A DNA stretch of 64,000 nucleotides from Nitrospirota bacterium. GTDB lineage: Bacteria; Nitrospirota; UBA9217. The DNA is taken from assembly GCA_020052615.1 (NCBI GenBank), contig JAGVOT010000134.1, positions 62,001 to 126,000 on the forward strand, in the 5' to 3' direction. Below, one piece after another: positions 23,720 to 56,155 of the stretch. The translations under genes and the position numbers were made by a program. The number at the start of each line of letters is the position of its first letter. Positions within the stretch are counted from its first letter, which is position 1. The notes under the pieces are model-generated. The model was not told the DNA's origin, did not search any database, and saw nothing but the letters and a program-made list of their open reading frames with translations.

Positions 23720-24241
23720 ATGCGTAACCTTGGCAGGAAGGGCTTCTCCATGCTTGAGATGTTGACCGTGCTGATGATTATGGGGGTTTTAAGCTCGATC
23801 GCTTTTTCGGCGATGCACGGATACTTCGCGAGAACGAAGCTCAGGAACACGGTCGAGATCGTCGCAGCAGACATCCGGCAGGCACGGTGGCTGGCCCGTA
23901 CCCGCTCTGCCCCATGCACGATTGTTTTTGACGCGGCATCACAGGCCTATGTCATAAGCGGCGAAAAGTCATCCTTGCTGCCCGAAGGTATACGGTTCGG
24001 CATTGACCCCACGGTGAGCGGCAAACCTTCCAATCCCTACTCGGCCCCGCCCCAGGACGGGATCTCTTTCGACAGCGGCAGCAAGAAGAACTTCGCACGG
24101 TTCTTTCCTTCCGGCACGGTAGCGCCTACCGGGGCGGTCTATATCACTGACGGAAAAGAGACGATGGCGATCACCGTTGCCATAACGGGCAGACCAAAGA
24201 TCTGGAAGTCCCACGGCGGGCATAAGTGGGTCTCGCTGTAG
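23720..24241 (+). CDS. FimT-like minor pseudopilin
   Basis: The 173-residue protein begins MRNLGRKG-FSMLEMLTVLMIMGVLS, a class III prepilin leader cut after Gly8, followed by the conserved E at position 5 and a hydrophobic helix. The C-terminal part has the GspH/FimT pattern (..LRNTVEIVAADIRQARWLARTRSAP.. and ..SFDSGSKKNFARFFPSG..). These proteins prime type IV pilus assembly. The ATG at 23720 has CAGGAGGTGAACC upstream. Its own terminator follows, and the sigma-54 promoter of the next operon lies beyond it, so it is transcribed on its own. Confidence 0.85.
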   Translation: MRNLGRKGFSMLEMLTVLMIMGVLSSIAFSAMHGYFARTKLRNTVEIVAADIRQARWLARTRSAPCTIVFDAASQAYVISGEKSSLLPEGIRFGIDPTVSGKPSNPYSAPPQDGISFDSGSKKNFARFFPSGTVAPTGAVYITDGKETMAITVAITGRPKIWKSHGGHKWVSL

Positions 24242-24335
24242 GTTGTAGGTTCCTGTGGCCTGGTCGTTTTATTGATTGATGTCAAGTCGACGTTACACGA
24301 ATGATCCAGGTTCCCCCGTACCAATGGTATCGGTT

Positions 24336-24386
24336 AAAGGCAGGTCGCGTTGCGGTATTTGATAATACCGGGGGCGGCCTGCCTTT
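24336..24386 (+). terminator. Rho-independent terminator
   Basis: AAAGGCAGG (from 24337) pairs with CCTGCCTTT and an inner stem CGGTATT/AATACCG closes the loop TGAT; T-rich bases follow. It separates the single pseudopilin gene from the pilus operon downstream. Confidence 0.78.
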
Positions 24387-24500
24387 TGTATATAATCAGG
24401 TCAACAAGAGATTGGGTAATGCATTACACAGGTTGGATGAGGAGGTTATTAAAATCAGCTGAAATGTCTTCCAATATATTGATATTACAACAAAATATAA

Positions 24501-24516
24501 TGGCATGCGGTTTGCT
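24501..24516 (+). promoter_or_regulatory. Sigma-54 promoter for the minor pilin operon
   Basis: TGGCATGCGGTTTGCT matches the -24/-12 consensus TGGCACG-N4-TTGCW with a single mismatch, and GG and GC are exactly 12 bases apart. Transcription would begin near 24527, about 29 bases before the first gene. An NtrC-type activator is required for such promoters; one is encoded at 54803. The rest of the gap 24242-24500 is AT-rich with no gene visible. Confidence 0.8.
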
Positions 24517-24555
24517 TTATTAGTCATACTAATTGGACAATGAAAGGCGGAAAGC

Positions 24556-24747
24556 ATGCCAAAATTCCGGCTCATATGCCCTGAATGCAGTGCAGCGGTC
24601 ATTACGACATACCCGGAGGCTGCGGTCTGGGAACTGTGCCCTGCCTGCAGACGACACATGTGGGACCTCTATGACGCGCGCATGGCTGACAAGGTGGATG
24701 CGAAGTCGGCGATAGGGACGGGAAGGAGCACTCATGCTGAGAATTAG
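24556..24747 (+). CDS. Small zinc-ribbon protein in the pilin operon
   Basis: The 63-residue protein has two CPxC knuckles, C8-PE-C11 and C28-PA-C31, 17 residues apart, the spacing of a zinc ribbon. It is cytosolic, with no leader. The last 14 bases overlap the next pseudopilin gene, so the two are translationally coupled, and it is the first gene after the sigma-54 promoter. No described pilus protein that I recall has this form. It may bind RNA or DNA or be a regulatory partner of the operon. Confidence 0.65.
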   Translation: MPKFRLICPECSAAVITTYPEAAVWELCPACRRHMWDLYDARMADKVDAKSAIGTGRSTHAEN

Positions 24748-25345
24748 CAGAAAGCCGATGATTCGGTCCCAACAGGCTTTCACCATAGTAGAGCTGCTGG
24801 TGGTCATCGGCATCATGGCGACCCTCATCACCATTGCTTCGGTCTCCATTTCCAACTCATTGCGCAACGCACGATTGAAGGATTCCACGCGTGAGCTTCA
24901 GGGGGAGTTGGTGACGATCAGGAACAGGGCGCGGACCCAGCAGCGGATAGTTGTGGTCCAGATGACCGCGACGAGTATCACTGCGTTCTATGATATGAAC
25001 AATGACAAGGTCTACGATGCAGCCGTGGATTTCATTGATGTCAGCAATCCACCCAACGGTGTATTTGATGCCGGCGTTGACACGCCCGGGCTGTTTTTTC
25101 AACATACCTATACGAATGGCATCCAGTTCACTGTGTCCAGTATCCCCGGTGCTGCTGCCCTGGTTCCTCTGACTACTTTCCGATTCAATGCTGCGGGCAA
25201 CATCGACGATGACAACCGCGTCATAACCGTCAGCCTCAACACGGAGCCGAAACGACAGTATCGGATCTGGCTCTTCACCACCGGCAACACCCGGGTGGAG
25301 CGAAGCGAAGATGCCGGCGTTACCTGGCCCACAAGACCGTGGTAG
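24734..25345 (+). CDS. fimU: FimU/GspH-type minor pseudopilin
   Basis: The 203-residue protein has a long leader MLRISRKPMIRSQQA-FTIVELLVVIGIMATLITIASV. The prepilin peptidase site is A|F rather than the usual G|F. E5 of the mature protein is present. The rest follows the GspH pattern, ..LRNARLKDSTRELQGELVTIRNRARTQQR.., and the ending ..NAAGNIDDDNRVITVSLNTEPKRQYRIWLFTTGNTRVER.. GGAAGGAG precedes ATG 24734. It belongs with pilV, pilW and pilX below. Confidence 0.83.
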   Translation: MLRISRKPMIRSQQAFTIVELLVVIGIMATLITIASVSISNSLRNARLKDSTRELQGELVTIRNRARTQQRIVVVQMTATSITAFYDMNNDKVYDAAVDFIDVSNPPNGVFDAGVDTPGLFFQHTYTNGIQFTVSSIPGAAALVPLTTFRFNAAGNIDDDNRVITVSLNTEPKRQYRIWLFTTGNTRVERSEDAGVTWPTRPW

Positions 25346-25369: not shown

Positions 25370-25927
25370 GTGGTACGTTCAGACTTTACAAAGGACCGTC
25401 AGGGCGGTTTCACCCTCTTGGAAACCCTGATCGCGGTCGCGATACTGGCCTTCGGACTGTTATCTGTCGTTACCATGGTGGAGGTATCCTACTCGGCCGG
25501 CGCGCTCGCCAAGAACACGACCAAGGCCACGGAACTGGCGGGCTGGATGATGGACCGTATCCTTCAGGACACATCACTGGCGACCCAGCCCTATACGGCG
25601 AGCATAACCAGCATTCGATCATACGACAACGATGGAACGACTGCCGTGAAACTCATCACCAATAGTGCTGTGGACCCGTTGAACGAGCCGGGCAGAACGG
25701 CCCTTCAGCAGTGGCGGTCGTTGATTCAGGGCACTGCCATCGCGACTTACATCGGCGCGGACCAACTGCGCGGCGACCGGCTCCCCGGGGGGCTGGGTGA
25801 AGTGATCATCGTTCCCTATGACGCCAGCAAGGGCGGAAACCACTCGGTGATGGTTCAGGTGACGTGGAGCAAGGGGCTTATAGAGCATCGTGTTCGCCTG
25901 GAAAATGTCCTGGCGACATCGGAATAA
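25370..25927 (+). CDS. pilV: PilV-type minor pilin
   Basis: The start is GTG 25370 with AAGGAGGATATC upstream. The leader MVRSDFTKDRQGG-FTLLETLIAVAILAFGLLSVVTM is typical of PilV (LLETLIA-x-x-IL-x-x-GLL). The 185-residue protein continues with a helix ..AGALAKNTTKATELAGWMMDRI.. and ..VMVQVTWSKGLIEHRVRLENVL, like type II pseudopilin I/V. With FimU, PilW and PilX it should form the tip complex of the pilus that presents PilY1. The spacing to the next gene is 13 bases. Confidence 0.86.
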   Translation: MVRSDFTKDRQGGFTLLETLIAVAILAFGLLSVVTMVEVSYSAGALAKNTTKATELAGWMMDRILQDTSLATQPYTASITSIRSYDNDGTTAVKLITNSAVDPLNEPGRTALQQWRSLIQGTAIATYIGADQLRGDRLPGGLGEVIIVPYDASKGGNHSVMVQVTWSKGLIEHRVRLENVLATSE

Positions 25928-25940
25928 TAAGGGAGGCGGT

Positions 25941-26909
25941 ATGGGTGCTCATGGACACGATCGGGGCTTCACGCTGGTCGAACTGCTGATCGCGATCTTC
26001 CTTGGCATGCTGGTCATGTCCGGCGGGTACATGGTTTTCCAGGCCAGCAACCGAGCCACGCGGGAACAGAACCTGGACAACCGCATGCAGGACAATGCGC
26101 GGGTCGCCATGGACGTGCTCTCGAGGAACTTCCGGCGCGCCGGTTTCCTGGTCAACTTCACCAGCTATCCCATAGGCCAGTCGGTGGACGGCATGACATC
26201 CAAACTGACCACGACGAATTCCGACGCAGGCCCCGACAGTGTGTCCATACTGGGTGGGACGCTCTCTACGGTCAGGTTCCTCCAGCGGTCCGCGGACCAG
26301 GGAGCATCAACGCTGATCGTGAACGACATCACGGGCATAAATGTGAACAACGTCATCGGTGTGGGGCTCACTTTCAGCAGTGTTGTCTCCGCGGTGAACG
26401 CCGGGTCAAATACTATTACGTTGAACACAACCGTCCCGACCGGGGCCACCAACATGTACTATCCCGGTGTGGTCCTGCAGGACAATGTTACGCCGTCGAA
26501 CCAGACACCTGCGCCAGTGCGCCTGTTGACGGCAATCCGCTACCAGATCAATTCTGCGAACGCCGCTCACCCGCAGCTGGAACAGGTGACCCAGGGGACG
26601 ACCGAGCCGGTGGCCGAGGACGTCGAGGATCTGCAGATCGCCTACGGAGTGGACCGGAACAACAACCGCATTATCGAGGCAGGAGAGTGGACCTACATGC
26701 CAACGACCAACGAGATCGACAAGATCCGGCTGGTGCGCGTCACCCTGGTGGCGCGGACCGCCACTCCCGATCCCCTGCTCCTGAACGTGCCGCAGACCGT
26801 TCCGTCCATCGAGGACCGCCCGCAGCGGATCGTCAACGACGGATACCGGCGGTATATCCTGACGCGGATCATTAAGACGAAGAATCTCGACGCGATCTTT
26901 ACGCTGTAG
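25941..26909 (+). CDS. pilW: PilW-type minor pilin
   Basis: ATG 25941 has GGGAGGCGGT upstream, which favours it over the in-frame start at 25890 inside pilV. The leader MGAHGHDRG-FTLVELLIAIFLGMLVMSG is a classical prepilin site. The 322-residue mature body has ..NLDNRMQDNARVAMDVLSRNFRRAGFL.., the PilW hallmark, and a C-terminal ..YRRYILTRIIKTKNL. It should connect PilV to PilX in the minor pilin complex. No frameshift or missing part is seen. Confidence 0.86.
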   Translation: MGAHGHDRGFTLVELLIAIFLGMLVMSGGYMVFQASNRATREQNLDNRMQDNARVAMDVLSRNFRRAGFLVNFTSYPIGQSVDGMTSKLTTTNSDAGPDSVSILGGTLSTVRFLQRSADQGASTLIVNDITGINVNNVIGVGLTFSSVVSAVNAGSNTITLNTTVPTGATNMYYPGVVLQDNVTPSNQTPAPVRLLTAIRYQINSANAAHPQLEQVTQGTTEPVAEDVEDLQIAYGVDRNNNRIIEAGEWTYMPTTNEIDKIRLVRVTLVARTATPDPLLLNVPQTVPSIEDRPQRIVNDGYRRYILTRIIKTKNLDAIFTL

Positions 26910-26923
26910 AAGAGAGGTGACCT

Positions 26924-27502
26924 ATGCTTACGATCATGAGCAACAAAAAAGGCATTGCCCTGGTGAGCACGCTGTTCTTCCTGATCATCGTGACGATGCT
27001 CTCGACTGCGGCGATCATGCTCTCCACGGTGCAGATGAAGGTGTCGAGCAGCATGTCTCGGTGGGAACGGGGACTTTCAGCGGCCGAGGGCGGTATCAAC
27101 TACGTCGTTCCGCTCCTTCAGTATGTACATTTTGACAGGAAGATCCCGACTCAGTACTGCACGTCTCTCGCTGCGGTAGCGCCCTGCGTTGTTCCTCCGA
27201 ACGTCCACACCCTTATCACGGAGCTTCAGACACTGGTGGAAGACGACGACACGGAGAACCTTCGCATCGCGGCCGCCCCCGCTCCGAGCATGTCCCAGGA
27301 TTTCAATCTCAGCATCGACCTCGACATGGTCGGGACCACCATAACGTCGGGCGGCGGCGTGGAAGCCTCCTGGGCCTATCATGGCGGCGCGTACAGCAGT
27401 TCGCTGCTGCGGGCGTACCGGGTGAGAAGCGAAGCCGCGGTCCCCGGCGGGACCAGCAGGACCGCTGTCTGTCAGGTTATCTGGCTGCGGGCCATCATGT
27501 AG
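26924..27502 (+). CDS. pilX: PilX-type minor pilin
   Basis: The 192-residue protein begins MLTIMSNKKG-IALVSTLFFLIIVTMLSTAAIML, the PilX/PilX_N pattern: a G|I prepilin site with no Glu at position 5. It continues with ..VSSSMSRWERGLSAAEGGIN.., typical of PilX. It lies 15 bases after pilW and 47 bases before the next small gene, so it is in the same operon. The long frame is intact. Confidence 0.8.
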   Translation: MLTIMSNKKGIALVSTLFFLIIVTMLSTAAIMLSTVQMKVSSSMSRWERGLSAAEGGINYVVPLLQYVHFDRKIPTQYCTSLAAVAPCVVPPNVHTLITELQTLVEDDDTENLRIAAAPAPSMSQDFNLSIDLDMVGTTITSGGGVEASWAYHGGAYSSSLLRAYRVRSEAAVPGGTSRTAVCQVIWLRAIM

Positions 27503-32442: not shown

Positions 32443-32470
32443 TCCGACTGTATCAGTGATGTAATAGTCG

Positions 32471-32504
32471 AACGGGCAAGGATTCATACCTTGCCCGTTT
32501 TTTT
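32471..32504 (+). terminator. Rho-independent terminator of the pilus operon
   Basis: CGGGCAAGG pairs with CCTTGCCCG around ATTCATA and is followed by seven T. It lies 30 bases after the pilY1 stop. Confidence 0.92.
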
Positions 32505-48123: not shown

Positions 48124-49935
48124 CTACCAGTTTTGCGAGCTGTGACAGCCGGACAGACCGCCGGCGCTGGGATTGCATGACGCGCCGTTGTAGTTCAGCG
48201 CTGTGGCGGTGGTAGCTGAAGCCGGACCCTCCATGACGGTCGTGTTCAACGTCGTGAAATGGTTCACGGCGAGCTTCGTCGTATCGTGGCAGACCGTGCA
48301 GGCAATGTTCCTGCCCACATGGAGCGTGTGTCTGCCGGAACTGAAGCTGTTAAATTGCGCCGTACCGGAAGCATGGCAGGACGTGCACTGGGTATTCACA
48401 TTTATGCTCCCGGTGAGCCAGCTCGGCGTGGTCTGTCCGCCGTGGCAGCTTACGTTCGAGCAGGTGTTTGCCGTATTGTCGAACGACGCAGCTCCTGATT
48501 CGGCATTATAGGCCGCGCTGCTGATGACCTCGGCTATGCCATTCTGGTGCAACGCCGTGCCCGAACCAGATCCGGAGTGGCATGCGCTGCAGTCGATGTA
48601 CGAACCCAATGCTGTGTGGGCAGTATGCCTGCCGGCCGTGTCAGGGAACGCAGCGCCTGCGGGCGGGATTCCATGACAGGTCCCGCAGCTTGCCGAGGTG
48701 AATGGCCAGGTATGGCACGTGGAGCAGGACGGTCCGGAGAGTGCCACGCCGGTCAACGTTGTCCCGTGGCAGTAGACATTGGCGCAGGAACCGGTCCCGT
48801 TCGCCAGGGCAAAGGCCCGGTGGTTCAATTGCACATTGGGATACCAGGCGAGCATGTGGACCTTCGTCTGATCCTGCATGTGACAGCTGTTGCAGGCGAT
48901 GTGCGAGCCGCCGCCGAGATAATCGGCGCCGTGGCATTTCTGGCAAACGACGCTGTCGGTCAGCGCGGCTGTCTCATGGGCCAGGACGACCCACGACGGG
49001 GCCGGATGGTCCAGACCCGGACCGTTATGGCATTGATAGCATGTGGTCGTCGCGCTTCCGCCCTGGTAGGTCTGGCCGTGGCAGGTCTTGCAGGCCGAGA
49101 AATCCTGTTCGGCGGTCACTCCATGCTGGGTCGAAGCGCTCCAGCCCGCGGGATGGCCCGATGCGGCGTGACAGAGCGTATTGTTAAAGCAGCCGGGAGG
49201 GGTTCCCGCTGCAGCCGGGGGAGAAGGCTGGACCGAGGAGTTCGCGCCGTTCGTATGGCACTGCGCGCAGACCGCCGCGTTACCCTGGTCGGTGTTCGTA
49301 TGGGTCCTCACGCCTCCCCTCCAGGGAGCGGGGGAATGGGGCGCGTTCGCGCCGTGGCAGGTGAAGCAGGATGTCAGGGCCGTGCCTCCCGAGAAGTCGG
49401 TCCCATGGCATGACTGACACTGGGAGAAACCGTTCGCCTGGGATTTTGCCGAGGCGCCATGCTGGGCGGGATCGCTCCAGCCAACGGGGTGCCCCGGCGT
49501 CGCGTGACAGAGCGTATTGTTGAAGCATCCCGGCGCTGCTCCCGCGGGAGCAGGCTGGGCCGGCTGGACCGTGGAGTTCGCGCCGTTCGAATGGCACTGC
49601 GCACAGACCGCCGCATTTCCCTCGGCGGTGTTCGTGTGGGTCCTCACGCCTCCCCTCCAGGGAGCGGGGGAATGGGGCGCCTGCGCGCCATGGCAGGTAA
49701 AGCAGGAAACGGCCGATAAGCCCCCGGCATATCCCGCGCCATGGCACTCCTGACAGGAGGAAAATCCCGCAGCCCGGGATTTTGCGTTGGCGCCATGGGC
49801 GGTTGGATCGGACCAGCCGGTCGGATGTTTCCCGGTAACGGGATCGAACGTTGATTCGTCGGTCCCGGCGCTGCATCCGGTGATGATGGCAGATAGTATC
49901 AGCAGGTACAGGGAGATTCTGGAGCGCATCGTCAT
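48124..49935 (-). CDS. Multihaem c-type cytochrome lipoprotein (CxxCH and CX4CH)
   Basis: The 603-residue protein starts with a lipobox (MTMRSRISLYLLILSAIITG-C). It has 15 CxxCH sites, two CX4CH (CANVYCH, CSNVSCH) and two CX5CH (CFNNTLCH), a mix known from Geobacter CxxxxCH/CxxCH proteins. The N-terminal third is a clear duplication: two near-identical 105-residue units (..GWSDP..HGA.AKS..GFS.C..CHG.., HSPAPWRGGVRTHTNT, CFNNTLCH) and a third, shortened one. It should be anchored to the outer membrane and carry electrons outside the cell. DNA repeats of the same units occur at about 49200-49340 and 49515-49660. It is alone on the minus strand. Confidence 0.92.
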   Translation of the reverse strand: MTMRSRISLYLLILSAIITGCSAGTDESTFDPVTGKHPTGWSDPTAHGANAKSRAAGFSSCQECHGAGYAGGLSAVSCFTCHGAQAPHSPAPWRGGVRTHTNTAEGNAAVCAQCHSNGANSTVQPAQPAPAGAAPGCFNNTLCHATPGHPVGWSDPAQHGASAKSQANGFSQCQSCHGTDFSGGTALTSCFTCHGANAPHSPAPWRGGVRTHTNTDQGNAAVCAQCHTNGANSSVQPSPPAAAGTPPGCFNNTLCHAASGHPAGWSASTQHGVTAEQDFSACKTCHGQTYQGGSATTTCYQCHNGPGLDHPAPSWVVLAHETAALTDSVVCQKCHGADYLGGGSHIACNSCHMQDQTKVHMLAWYPNVQLNHRAFALANGTGSCANVYCHGTTLTGVALSGPSCSTCHTWPFTSASCGTCHGIPPAGAAFPDTAGRHTAHTALGSYIDCSACHSGSGSGTALHQNGIAEVISSAAYNAESGAASFDNTANTCSNVSCHGGQTTPSWLTGSINVNTQCTSCHASGTAQFNSFSSGRHTLHVGRNIACTVCHDTTKLAVNHFTTLNTTVMEGPASATTATALNYNGASCNPSAGGLSGCHSSQNW

Positions 49936-50783
49936 TGTGTATTTCTACCTTTCTTGAGATTTGGACGACCGGTCATATCTACAGTACGGAAGATCGCCGC
50001 TTTGCCTGGTCCGGACGCCGTTTTAACTGCAGGCATGCTGGTGTTCCGATGTGAGTGTTCCTGCGCTTTGTATTTGCACTGTGCGCTAGTGATGGGTGAT
50101 GTAAGGACTGACGAAGTCTTGATTACGTGCGTATATGCTAACGCTTCGGCCAAGATCGTGTCAATACCAAATATTTTATGAGAATAATTATAGATAAGGC
50201 AATAAATAAACTACCTAGAAAACCAAAAACGAGGCTAACCAAAAAACGCCTCATATCGGGCACATGTGCCGCAGCCTTGTAAGCATACGAACAGTAAAGA
50301 AAGCCTACTTTATTTTTGCAAAGTGAATGCCACCAGGGCTGGGACCACATTAACTAACTGATTGTTTTAACCTTTAGGTGCTTTACCTGTATGATGGCCA
50401 GTCTTCCTGACAAGAAAAAGATTGTCTGTATTTTCATACGACGAAATCAGGCTGTATGCTGAAAAAGCGCGATTTGGCCAAATAAACAGATTGTTAGCCT
50501 GTTGGAGGAATTCACCTGCAGGGGAAGAGTCTGCGAAGGCACCGTCATACATTCATAGAACAGGTTGTCAGTTGAAGTCGTCCCCGTGGAGGAGAGAGCC
50601 CAATGCCTGTTAATATTCCCGGTGCTCCATTGCGCGGGGATAATCGATGCTTTTATCGCATTGTCAGACGCCCGACTGTCCGGTCGTCCTCCCCTTGATG
50701 CGCCGATCATGCCGGGGCCGATGTCATTGTTGAAAAGCGGTCGTTTATACAGGAGCGACGGGTTCTTTCTAAGTGCTGTTCAC
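49936..50783. other. AT-rich intergenic island without a firm gene
   Basis: The stretch is clearly poorer in GC than its neighbours, especially 50160-50360. A perfect palindrome GGCACATGTGCC lies at 50259-50270 and a hairpin GAGGC..GCCTC at 50231-50252. Small frames exist (for example a 38-residue membrane peptide from 50254 down to 50138) but lack ribosome sites and homology. It may hold control sites for the sensor kinase gene. Confidence 0.5.
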
Positions 50784-50890: not shown

Positions 50891-53800
50891 ATGCCCATAC
50901 GAACTAAATTCATCCTGATCCTCCTCGCGTTCATTATCGTCCCCGGCGTATTGTTCAGCGCGATGGTATATTCGACGGCGCGAACATCGCTGATGGACGT
51001 GAGGATCGCGCAGCTGAACAACGTCGCCGCCCTTAAGAAGGACAGGATCGAGGCCTTTTTCAGCGCCTGGCGGTCACAGATCGCGATGGTCCAGCACAAT
51101 CCCGATATTGAGCATTTCCTCCCTGTTCTGGTCGCCAACGCCGGGAACAAGGAATCATCGGCCTACCGGCAGGCTTTCGCCGAACTGGAGGAGCAACTGC
51201 AGGTAATCCAGAGGGTCAATGGATATCTGAACGTCCTTCTGGTCGACCCCCGGGGAAGGATCGTATATTCAAGCAGCGATAGAAACCGTGCTCCGCTTTC
51301 CGAGGTATCGCCTCCCGTCAAATACTTCCACGAAGCGCGAAAAAATATCTTCTTTTCAGACATCTATCGAAGAACGTCGGATAGCGCGCCGCTGGCGATG
51401 ATCGGAGCAGCGCCCGTCCATGACGTTCAGGGCGTCTTTGTCGGTGAGATCGTGATCGAGCAGGCGATGGACCTTGTCTACCGGACCATCCTGGACACGA
51501 CCGGACTCGGGCGGACGGGAGAGGTCGTCATCAGCCGCCGGGAAGGAAACGCCGTCATGTTCCTGAGTCCCTTGAAGAGCGATCCTTACGCAGCGTTCGT
51601 CAGGAAGATCCCCTATGCCAGCAAGCAGGCTTACCCGTCGCAGCGGGCGTCCCGGGGAGAGACCGGCTCGGGGATCACCCTTGATTATCAGGGAACCGAG
51701 GTGCTGGCCGCGTGGCAGTACCTGCCATCTGTTCGCTGGGGGCTGGTGACCAAGATCCATGCGTCTGAAGCCTTCGCTCCGATCGAGCATATGAGAAACC
51801 TGATCATCCTGCTGGGCGGCGTCTTCCTGTTCCTCGCGGTCCTTGTCGCCTACGCAACAGCGCGGAGCGTCGCCGACCCGATCCTGGAACTGCAGAAGGG
51901 CACGGACGTCATCGGCCGCGGCAATCTCGACCATAGGGTCGGGACGACGGCGAAGGACGAGGTTGGAGATCTGTCGCGGATGATCGACGTGATGACCACA
52001 AACCTGAAAAGGGTGACAGCATCGCGCGACGAACTGGATGCGGAGATCACCGTGCGAAAAAGCGTCGAACTGTCGCTTGTCGAGCAGTCGCGGGTCCTGG
52101 AGGCCTACTTCAAGCATTCCGTGTCGCCCCTGGTGTTCCTCGACCGGGAGTTCAACTTCCTCAGGGTGAACGAGGCCTACGCACGGGTCTGTTCTCGTTC
52201 CGTGGAGGATTTTCCCGGCATAATCACTTTGTCGATTATCCTTCCGATGAACTGAAGCAGGAGTTCGAGAACGTCGTGAACACCGGCATTCCTTATTACA
52301 AAGATGCGCGGCCCTTCCGGTTCCCGGACCATCCCGAATGGGGGACCACGTACTGGGACCTCATCGTGAACCCCATCGTGGATGACGATGGAAAGGTCGA
52401 TTTTCTGGTGTTCTCGCTGAACGACGTGACCCATCGCACGGAAACGGAGCGCCGCATAGCCGTTACCAGCGCTCTCCTGAAGCAGTTCGCCGGGAAATAC
52501 GACAGGAAGGAATACCTCGACGCCGCTGTTGACCTCATCTGCGAATGGAGCGGCTGCCGGAACGCGGGTATCAGGATAACGGACGAGGAGGGCAACATCC
52601 CCTTCCGGGCGTGCCGCGGGTTCAGCGACGAGTTCCTGGCGTCGGAGAACGCCTTGTCCGCTGCTGTCGACCGGTGCACATGCACCCGGGTCATCACCGA
52701 AAAACCGGAGCTGCATGACCTGCCCGCGATGACGCAGAGCGGCTCGTTCGCGACCAACGACCTGAGGCTGTTCATGGAGGAGCTGACGCCCGAACAGCGG
52801 AATGCGTTCCGCGGCGCCTGCCTGCGGTGCGGGTTCGGGTCCCTCGCCGTGATCCCGGTGAAGCACCGTGGCCAGATGCTCGGCGCCATACACCTGGCTG
52901 ATGAACGGCAAGGCATGGTCCCTCTGAAGAACGTGGAATTCCTTGAACAGCTCGCTTTCATCATCGGCGAGGCGGTCTACCGGTTCGATATCGAGGACGA
53001 ACTGCGCAGGAACTATGACGCCCTCCGGCTGTCGGAAACACGCTACCGCGCGCTGGTCGAGGATATCCGCGACGTCATTTTCACCCTGACAGAAGGCGGT
53101 TCCATTGCTTCCCTGAACACCGCCTTCGATGTGAACACCGGGTTTTCACGGGATGAATACGTGGGGAGGCAGTTTGTCGAACTGATACATCCCTACGATC
53201 TGCCCCATGCCATGGAGATCTTCGCGAACATCCTGTCAGGACATCCAATGCCGCTGTTCGAACTGCGGGTGCGTACGCGCTCCGGGGAGTATCGCACCTT
53301 TGAGTTCAAGGTCGGCACGGACCGGACCGCCGAGGGGATGATCCTCGGGACCGCCCGCGATGTGACCGAGCGCAAACAGGCGGAAGAGCAGCTGAACCTC
53401 TTTATTGACCTCATCAACCAATCCATTGATGCCGTGTATGTGGCGGACCCGGCAACGGGCGCGATCGTGGAGTTCAACGAGGCTGCCTGCATCAGCACGG
53501 GATATTCCCGGCGGGAATTGCTGTCGATGAAGGTCTCCAATCTTTCCCGCAAACACTTCGACCGTGAACGCTGGAACGATCATGTCTCGGAAGTACGGAA
53601 CAAAGGGGCGCTGCTCCTGGAAGATGTCGTCTATCGCAAGGACGGGAGCGCGATTCCCGTGGAAGTGGCCGTTAAGTACATCTCCCGCGGGGAGCAGGAT
53701 TACCTGGTCGCGGTCATTCGTGATGTGACCGAACGAAAACAGGCCGAGGAGGAGCACGCCCGCCTGGTCTCCGCGGTCGAGTCGGCTGCCGACGCGATCG

Positions 53801-54816
53801 TGATCACGCACCCCGCCACCGGCGTGATCCAGTATGCCAATCGCGCATTCGAACAGATCACCGGATATGCCAGGCAGGATGCAGTGGGGAGGACGCTGCA
53901 TTTCCTTGAGAGCGGCGAGCATGGCGAGGAACATTTCCACGGCATCCGGGAGACCCTGGCAAACGATGGTGTCTGGAGTGGAAAACAAGTCAGCAGGCGG
54001 AAGGACGGCTCAACCTATTTCGAGGAATGCACGGTATGGCCGGTGAAGAACAGGAACAATGAGATCATCAACTACGTGTATATCAAGCGGGATGTAACGG
54101 AGCGTCTCCGGCTCGAAGCCATCGCCGAGTCGGTCAACACGATGGACAATATCGGCTACGTATTCTCGGGGGTCCGGCACGAGATCGGCAATCCCATCAA
54201 TTCGATCAACATGATCCTCGGCATCCTGCGGGCAAAGCTGGACACCCTGCCGACGGAGGCCGTGAAGGACTATCTGGCGAAGATGACGGAGCAGATAAGC
54301 CGGGTCGAATACATTTTGCGCTCGCTCAAGAGCTTCAACCTTTACGAGACCCAGCAGCCGCAGAACATCGACCTGTCAAGCTTCATGGGGAACTTTCTGC
54401 CGCTGATACGGAATGATCTCGCACGGAAGGGCATCACCGTCCAGGCCGCTGTCGAGCCGGACAGCACGGCTTATGCCGATGCCCGGGCGCTTCAGCAGGT
54501 GCTCCTGAACATCATAACCAACGCCGCTGACGCGGTGACGGACCGGGCGGACCCCGTCATTGTTCTCTCCCTGTCTTGCAGCGCCGGTTCGGCGCGGATC
54601 CGGGTGCGGGACAACGGACAGGGAATCCCCGAGGACAAGTTGAAGAACATCTACAGGCCGTTCTATACGACAAAGAAGCAGGGGACCGGGCTCGGCCTGG
54701 TCATCGTGCGGAAGATGCTTGCCCGGATGAACGGCCGCATCGATTTGACAAGCACCATGGGCGAAGGGACCACCGTGGAGATCACCATTCCGGAGGGAAC
54801 GCATGAAGTCCGCTAA
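50891..54816 (+). pseudogene. Multi-PAS sensor histidine kinase with one frameshift
   Basis: The first part (50891-52255) has a membrane helix (FILILLAFIIVPGVLFSAMV), an extracytoplasmic dCache-like sensor to about residue 290, a second helix near 303-325, a HAMP domain (..DPILELQKGTDVIGRGNLDHRVG..) and the start of a PAS domain. At about 52217 the frame shifts: reading +1 gives HNHFVDYPSDEL.. continuing the PAS domain to 52276 and on to 54816. One missing G after CCCGG would explain it. The second part has a GAF, three more PAS domains, the H-box FSGVRHEIGNPINSI and an ATPase with NIITNAADAV, RDNGQGIPEDKL and KKQGTGLGLVIV. It overlaps the response regulator gene by 14 bases. If the shift is a sequencing error the kinase is intact. 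Confidence 0.82.
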
Positions 54817-56155
54817 TACCAGAAAAACGCTGCTCGTCATCGATGATGACCGCGTATTTGGAGAGGCCATCAGGGACTACCTGTCAAGCGAGTCCGTGGA
54901 AGTGCTCATCGCCAACAAGGCGGCGGACGGCCTGACCCTCTGCTCCCTCCGGAAGATCGACGTCGTCGTGCTGGACCAGCAGCTTCCCGACGGGGAAGGG
55001 CATACCCTGTGCCCGGACATCCTGCGGTATAACGACCAGACCAAGATCATCTTTTCGACGGCCTTCCCCAGCTTTGAGAACGCCGTCAAAGCCATCCGGT
55101 TCGGGGCCCATGATTATCTTTCCAAACCCTATGATCTGGAGGAGCTTGCCCTGGCCGTTCGGCAGTCCTTCCGCACCCTGGAGTTGGAGCAGGTCGAACA
55201 GGTCCAGAACTATCAGCGCACGCGGGAAAAAGAGGGCGCCGTCATCATCGGCGGAGAGGGCATCGCCGATGTGCTTCAGCTCGTCGAGATCGCGGCGGTG
55301 TCTGATTCGCCGGTGCTCATAACCGGCGAGACGGGGACCGGCAAGACGCTCGTGGCCAAGGCCATCCACTTCAAGGGCAAGCCGAACAGCGCGCCTTTCG
55401 TGAGCATCAATTGCGCGTCGCTGCCGGAAAATCTCATCGAGGCGGAGCTCTTCGGCTTCGAGAAAGGCGCGTTCACCGGCGCGGTCAATGCCAAAAAAGG
55501 CCTGTTCGAAATGGCTGAGGGCGGTACGCTGTTCCTCGATGAGATCGGGGAAATGCCGTTTCACCTTCAGTCGAAATTGCTGAGCGCCCTGGAGGACCGG
55601 ATGATCCGCCGGCTCGGTGGGACTTCTTCCAAACCGATCAGTGTGCGGATCATCGCCGCCACGAGCGTGGAACTGGAGGACACCCTCGGCAAGAACTTCA
55701 GGAAAGACCTTTACTACCGCCTCAGCGTGGTCCGGATACACATCCCCCCCCTTCGTGAACGGAGAGGGGACATCCCCGTGCTGTGCGGCTATCTGCTCAA
55801 GACCATCACCACCCATCCGATCGAGATCCCCGACGACGACATGACGCTGCTCATGAAGTACGACTGGCCGGGAAACGTGCGCGAGCTCAAGAACATCCTT
55901 GAGCGTGCGCTCTTCATCCAGAAGGGCGCGACGCTGGAGCCGTCCCTCCTTCTGGAAAAGAGGGCTCCGGCACCGGCGAATTGCACGTTTCCCGTTGCTC
56001 CGGAAATGACCATCAAGACCCTCGATGAGTGTGAAAAAGAGATCATCGCCGCTGCGCTGGCCCAACTGAAAGGCAATCTCACTCAGACCGCGAAAGCGCT
56101 CGGCATATCGCTGTCTACGCTCAAGAGAAAGATACAGGAATACCATATAAAATAA
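54803..56155 (+). CDS. NtrC-type sigma-54-dependent response regulator
   Basis: The 450-residue protein has a receiver domain with D14-D16 acids and the phosphoacceptor D58 (VVVLDQQLPDG), then an AAA+ domain with Walker A GETGTGKT, the sigma-54 contact loop GAFTGA (intact), FLDEIGEMPFHLQSKLL, and the arginine finger region DLYYRLSVVRIHIPPLRER. A Fis-type helix-turn-helix ends it (..LTQTAKALGISLSTLKRKI..). It is overlapped by the kinase gene, so the two are a pair. It could activate the sigma-54 promoter at 24501, which is only a guess. A run of eight C (near 55745) keeps frame. Confidence 0.94.
   Translation: MKSANTRKTLLVIDDDRVFGEAIRDYLSSESVEVLIANKAADGLTLCSLRKIDVVVLDQQLPDGEGHTLCPDILRYNDQTKIIFSTAFPSFENAVKAIRFGAHDYLSKPYDLEELALAVRQSFRTLELEQVEQVQNYQRTREKEGAVIIGGEGIADVLQLVEIAAVSDSPVLITGETGTGKTLVAKAIHFKGKPNSAPFVSINCASLPENLIEAELFGFEKGAFTGAVNAKKGLFEMAEGGTLFLDEIGEMPFHLQSKLLSALEDRMIRRLGGTSSKPISVRIIAATSVELEDTLGKNFRKDLYYRLSVVRIHIPPLRERRGDIPVLCGYLLKTITTHPIEIPDDDMTLLMKYDWPGNVRELKNILERALFIQKGATLEPSLLLEKRAPAPANCTFPVAPEMTIKTLDECEKEIIAAALAQLKGNLTQTAKALGISLSTLKRKIQEYHIK

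Follow-up and report, generated by a model that had tools for sequence, protein, structure and literature searches.

A small zinc-ribbon-like protein at the apparent head of a minor-pilin/PilY1 operon in one family of Nitrospirota

Why should an operon for minor pilins and PilY1 begin with a gene for a small, cysteine-rich protein? The case that we followed lies in a 64,000-nucleotide stretch of a Nitrospirota genome (hereafter the window), in which an ORF with an ATG start, preceded by AAAGGCGGAAAGC, encodes a product of 63 residues (MPKFRLICPECSAAVITTYPEAAVWELCPACRRHMWDLYDARMADKVDAKSAIGTGRSTHAEN). An earlier note, drawn from the letters alone, had described this product as zinc-ribbon-like, devoid of a pilin leader and unlike any standard pilus protein known to its author, and each of these points stands. 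It has six homologues, and its four cysteines, arranged as CPEC-x16-CPAC, are among the residues invariant in all seven members (C8, P9, C11, P20, W25, C28, C31, W36 and D40, the start excluded). Many zinc-ribbon models match weakly, while no Pfam or NCBIfam cut-off is passed by the window protein. Neither a prepilin leader with its hydrophobic helix (no N_methyl match) nor any other hydrophobic stretch was found, the top 19-residue Kyte–Doolittle mean among the seven members being 1.25. Members are 63–67 residues long, with net charges from −4 to +2 and pI values of 4.9–8.4. We infer that Cys8, Cys11, Cys28 and Cys31 bind zinc, and that the ORF is translated and its product acts in the cytosol.

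The core of the gene (residues 2–46) is under purifying selection. Between the genome of the window (G000) and G001, the sole pair among 21 with a core dS below 1.4 (three further pairs lie at 1.4–3.0 and 17 were not computable), dN is 0.039 and dS 1.08, giving a dN/dS of ~0.04, and changes at the three codon positions number 2, 2 and 17, the pattern of a forward frame. For the tail, the same pair yields a dN of 0.30 and a dS of 0.70. A structure model of the 63-residue protein (mean pLDDT 80.1, pTM 0.58) reaches pLDDT 88–93 in 10-residue blocks through residue 40 and drops below 50 in the tail, from residue 53 on. A chance ORF is ruled out by the homologues, the invariant cysteines and the dN/dS. 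Two overlapping ORFs were likewise rejected as real genes: the opposite-strand frame at 24529–24888 is open over the zinc-ribbon gene in 4/7 members, and the +1 frame at 24533–24715 in none of the seven.

How widely is the protein distributed? In its own genome it matches only itself, and a search of 61 genomes (its own and relatives) returned seven, including its own, at E ≤ 3.5e-13, all from its own GTDB family within the Nitrospirota (f1, 14 genomes), with the next best match at E 0.006. When the seven-row alignment was run against 395 genomes of the phylum, all 14 of f1 among them, the same seven matched at E ≤ 3.3e-30 and there was no strong match outside these carriers, which make up half of the family (7/14); weaker matches, in six more genomes (E 0.0013 to 0.01) and at another site in G004 (E 4.4e-4), were left uncounted. 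A degenerate-pattern scan over 84,980 species, one genome each, requires near-exact short patterns, such that remoter relatives could be missed; it returned the six other f1 loci and one Patescibacteria fragment. Those six loci come from Nitrospirota MAGs, one being isolate UBA9217; a GTDB class treated in the part of PMC11033732 considered here seemingly takes its name from this isolate. The Patescibacteria fragment, the sole match outside Nitrospirota, covers residues 3–25 only, lies inside an 819-residue ORF and was dropped. Also rejected as a member was the second ribbon of G004 (contig C85, 9205–9504, reverse orientation; E 4.4e-4), a protein of 99 residues with a basic N-terminal half, a sub-threshold Zn_ribbon_TFIIB match and weak likeness to the window family; no prepilin motif was found on its own strand within 19 kb around it. 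A viral or phage origin was dismissed: none of 56 pattern matches in viral contigs could be confirmed as a relative, and phage records yielded no relative either. The family is lineage-restricted and tied to the pilus operon.

In the window, the genes from the zinc-ribbon ORF through PilY1 look like a single operon with the zinc-ribbon gene at its head (Table 1). Further upstream lies another gspH-like gene (23720–24241), and the stable hairpin between it and the operon, which is absent from the sites of a consensus terminator scan, may end its transcript. The terminator-like site at the other end of the unit is to be read against a background of 12 such sites in the region, with 7.9 expected. 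The PilY1-like protein is matched in 11/14 genomes of the family (E ≤ 1e-10), and the 116-residue protein encoded just before it has relatives at five other loci (L032, L033, L035, L088 and L089; E ≤ 1.7e-7).

Table 1. Features in and around the putative pilus operon of the window
Feature	Coordinates	Strand	Evidence or remark
RNA hairpin with short T-rich tail, possible terminator	24335..24395	+	−34.6 kcal/mol; z −6.14; 0/200 shuffles as stable
Palindrome GGTAATGCATTACA, candidate UAS for a sigma-54 activator	24415..24428	+	Starts 86 bases before the start of the sigma-54 site
Sigma-54 −24/−12 promoter-like site TGGCATGCGGTTTGCT	24501..24516	+	Pattern match
CPxC-CPxC zinc-ribbon-like protein, 63 aa, first gene of the operon	24556..24747	+	ORF, homologues, selection, model
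gspH/fimT-like pseudopilin gene	24734..25345	+	24.2 bits for N_methyl (above cut-off); 17.2 bits for GspH (cut-off of 21 not reached)
pilV-like minor pilin	25370..25927	+	N_methyl 31.1 bits; named from position and size
pilW-like minor pilin	25941..26909	+	PilW 37.2 bits; start inferred from the ribosome site before it
pilX-like minor pilin	26924..27502	+	PilX_N 27.7 bits
116-aa protein with N-terminal hydrophobic segment	27550..27900	+	No Pfam family above cut-off
PilY1-like protein, 1513 aa	27901..32442	+	28.1 bits, equal to the cut-off
Intrinsic-terminator-like site at the end of the unit	32470..32500	+	12 pairs, T-rich tail

A known counterpart of such a unit is the Pseudomonas minor pilin operon, fimU-pilVWXY1E, with which the window shares genes of the gspH/fimU type, pilV, pilW, pilX and pilY1. 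Unlike that operon, however, the one described here begins with a zinc-ribbon gene and has a sigma-54 site with a palindrome of its own. A search of the open-access literature for pilus operons with a zinc-ribbon gene returned nothing relevant among the matches listed; the kind of protein is already known, its pilus-operon setting was not found in the literature searched.

Does the arrangement recur? At all seven loci a minor-pilin/PilY1 operon opens with the zinc-ribbon gene, first after the promoter as the earlier note had stated for the window, and the next gene lies on the same strand; the note's worry that homologues might always sit in unrelated places was not borne out. The identity of the next gene differs, being of the gspH type at four loci (G000, G001, G005 and G010) and pilY1-like at two (G004 and contig C267 of G007, where the ORF is cut by the contig end and matches the window PilY1 at E 1.2e-6), while in G002 a small ORF stands between the zinc-ribbon gene and pilY1. 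Since the neighbour varies and the promoter-adjacent place is kept, it is the promoter to which the zinc-ribbon gene keeps. The coupling to the next gene by a 14-base overlap, which the same note had also proposed, holds in the window, in G001 and in G010, but not as a feature of the family, the other four loci having gaps instead.

Counterparts without the gene are equally informative. In G003 and G008 the operon is of the same type and stands behind the same kind of promoter, yet the zinc-ribbon gene is lacking; counted from where the sigma-54 site starts, the pilin gene begins 31–77 bases on as judged by the first start codon (31 or 52 in G008). At a second place in G007 (contig C160), a gspH-type gene follows immediately on a sigma-54 site. 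Because two relatives have promoter and operon without it, the gene is accessory rather than a core pilus part. Our survey of operon heads comprised 30 loci, derived from matches in 140 of 198 genomes and assuming that each pilin gene stands first in its operon. Of its 22 pilin loci that belong to the phylum but lie outside f1 (three of them, L134, L135 and L152, doubtful, the pilin motif being placed away from the matched gene), none showed a Cys4 ORF within 700 bases upstream. Six of the 22 have a sigma-54 pattern, 73–151 bases before the pilin motif (L140, L146, L148, L150, L153 and L155), and the f1 palindrome was at 86–88 bases in none of these, although L148 matches it twice at 10 of 12 positions, 100 and 78 bases away. 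In an rpoB tree of 13 genomes, unrooted and without outgroup (G006 is missing for want of an rpoB match), a bootstrap of 100 supports a split with G003 and the seven carriers on one side and G008, G011, G009, G012 and G013 on the other. Read most simply, this unrooted split would reflect a single gain behind a pre-existing sigma-54 switch together with a single loss in G003.

The promoter itself deserves scrutiny. The zinc-ribbon gene starts 55 bases behind the start of a site matching the strict sigma-54 pattern, of which the window holds two matches (0.17 expected); the other, at 50317–50332 on the reverse strand, lies ~380 bases upstream of a 603-residue ORF (48124–49935, reverse strand). 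Genome-wide there are 31 matches as compared to 20 for the reversed control, so that any single site is weak evidence. Support for the site at the zinc-ribbon gene comes instead from its recurrence across heads: GG-N10-GC is present upstream of the gene in its strict form at six of seven heads, and in 10 of 11 positions at the seventh. A second element recurs with it. Ten of the 12 operon heads, comprising all seven with the zinc-ribbon gene and three without, carry a palindrome close to TGTAAYNNRTTACA (10–12 of 12 positions) that precedes the sigma-54 site by 86–88 bases, start to start; outside G000 these heads are found in G001–G005, G007, G008 and G010. The palindrome is absent at the heads of G012 and of G006, the head region of the latter being a guess. 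Single-base shuffles reached a mean of 0.76 and a maximum of four of the 12 heads, a control that is partly circular because the consensus was read from the same heads.

Palindrome and sigma-54 pattern combined, at a gap of 65–87 bases, gave six matches across the 14 f1 genomes and one for the reversed control. All six fall on zinc-ribbon heads, one each in G000, G001, G002, G004, G005 and G007; the seventh such head, in G010, misses the combined pattern by one base in the palindrome, which is also where the gene-free heads differ from it. As the combined pattern was written from these heads, its informative part is that no matches occur elsewhere. Searched for alone in its strict form, the palindrome goes unmatched in G000, where the copy deviates at a single position. 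The palindrome would seem to be an activator site whose targets in family f1 are very few, and the unit combines two sequence marks expected of sigma-54 dependence, a −24/−12 site and an activator-like site further upstream. Which activator might bind there? Sigma-54 activator domains give 31 matches in the genome. One of them (G000:C131:117259-117741) belongs to a gene on the forward strand of the window, at 54803–56155, ~30 kb downstream of the operon, which is a candidate regulator. It is preceded by two ORFs (50891–52255 and 52276–54816) that appear sensor-kinase-like from their order and first residues only.

As to kinship, the weak matches of the seven members spread over several zinc-ribbon models: Zn_ribbon_Top1 in 6/7, and Zn_ribbon_TFIIB, HVO_2753_ZBP and HVO_0758 in 3/7 each. 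Zn_ribbon_TFIIB (PF13453, cut-off 22 bits) does not list the window protein at E ≤ 1, and its best value among the three matching members is 6e-4. Both share the layout C-x2-C, ~16 residues, C-x2-C, followed by Trp and Asp. Compared profile to profile with Zn_ribbon_TFIIB segments taken from the same genomes, the family scored 34.49, with 60 cysteine-fixed shuffles at a mean of 17.4 and a maximum of 33.3, and with a smaller ribbon set it scored 34.17 against a shuffle maximum of 32.8. These values are at most suggestive of a distant kinship. LysW-like carriers (PF21344) match two of the seven members weakly (best E 0.0096), and LysW chains occur among the weak fold matches of the window model (Z 2.4–2.6). 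LysW ends in an EDWGE-type motif, and no such ending is present in the alignment of the seven. Solved structures gave nothing significant by sequence (best E 0.19 for eS27 and 0.24 for LysW) and neither did fold searches (best E 1.5 with Foldseek, Z at most 3.0 with VIA-align); in the model, the resemblance would amount to the general look of a small metal knuckle.

By motif, the window protein fits the class of small 'CPxCG-related' zinc finger proteins, defined in the part of PMC2253796 drawn on here as having two Cys/His patterns 7–40 residues apart, at least one of them CPxCG-like (CPxCx allowed). It has CPECS and CPACR, with 16 residues between Cys11 and Cys28, all seven members lie below the small-class limit of 100 residues, and zinc binding is predicted. 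According to PMC2253796, Brz (bacteriorhodopsin-regulating zinc finger protein) of Halobacterium salinarum, also small and of the CPxC type, is encoded directly upstream of bop in the same orientation, and its deletion strongly lowers bop mRNA. The zinc-ribbon gene is placed in the same manner, directly upstream of the next gene and on the same strand at all seven loci, which would make that gene the presumed target. There are differences, however: Brz is archaeal and acts on the level of bop mRNA, whereas the window gene heads a bacterial operon with a sigma-54 site, and Brz depends on Cys and His of its motif (PMC2253796) where the window protein has four Cys. We take Brz as a possible working mode and claim no kinship. 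Haloferax one-domain zinc finger proteins, like ours below 70 residues but of other sequence and from another domain of life, offer a further parallel: in the parts of PMC6562870 covered here, 6/16 deletions raised biofilm formation and 6/16 abolished swarming, and a pilus-operon setting does not feature in those parts.

What, then, could the protein do? Its fixed place suggests that it helps to control or to build the pilus fibre. With a confidence just short of even, we favour a Brz-like, protein-binding regulator of its own operon, because the gene holds its place by the switch whichever gene comes next and its product is near-neutral in charge. Each time sigma-54 turns on the minor-pilin/PilY1 operon, the zinc-ribbon protein would be made first, and this cytosolic ribbon would then most likely feed back on operon expression through binding to a protein of the expression apparatus, such as the sigma-54 activator, RNA polymerase or the ribosome. 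The range of charge and pI given above argues for protein rather than DNA as the partner, and that partner would presumably be a regulator. Against such regulation stands that the promoters of G003, G008 and G007 C160 serve a pilin gene without the protein, and the promoter can thus manage without the gene in cis. In addition, the charge pattern is not that of a DNA-binding protein, cut-offs are reached by no family of known function and fold searches gave no significant match, and a role in pilus assembly predicts much of the same neighbourhood.

That role in assembly is the main competitor: a cytosolic adaptor would dock with a motor or platform of the PilB/PilM/PilC type, or with the cytosolic ends of minor pilins, and help to start assembly. 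The gene's place directly before minor pilin or PilY1 genes at 7/7 loci is consistent with this, as is a neutral to acidic protein in which the conserved Trp25, Trp36, Pro20 and Asp40 could form a protein interface. Minor pilins, however, have almost no cytosolic exposure, an adaptor would have no need to come first each time, and the gene is missing from the like operons of G003 and G008 as well as from the 700 bases upstream of each of the 22 other-family pilin loci. We regard an adaptor as less likely than the regulator. More improbable still is a zinc or redox sensor, whose Cys4 site would lose its metal on zinc starvation or oxidation and thereby switch pilus-tip production. The invariance of the four cysteines and a position right behind the switch would suit a sensor, but no known sensor family scores above cut-off and structural zinc ribbons are far commoner than sensors. 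Finally, translation of the ORF might matter through coupling or attenuation of the next gene, with the protein incidental. The tail evolves fast, and where the 14-base overlap is present the ribosome site of the next gene falls inside this tail. With the overlap confined to 3/7 loci and a core conserved at the amino-acid level across seven genomes, mere coupling is very improbable; nor was a stable leader hairpin detected in two window stretches folded (z −0.79 and −0.58).

Returning to the regulator that we favour, it is conceivable, if rather doubtful, that this lineage has placed a dedicated zinc-ribbon gene as a built-in checkpoint at the front of its pilus-tip operon, reading zinc, redox state or a partner protein and setting the number of pilus tips. 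For type IV pili, no such zinc-ribbon checkpoint regulator is known to us. In the part of PMC5979040 considered here, the priming of assembly and the forming of the pilus tip are ascribed to minor pilins and PilY1. A conserved zinc ribbon behind an activator-like site and a promoter would provide a single-gene handle on pilus-tip control outside the Pseudomonas model. Moreover, a small gene that passes no family cut-off becomes recognisable here by its fixed place, and this in a little-known group of Nitrospirota.
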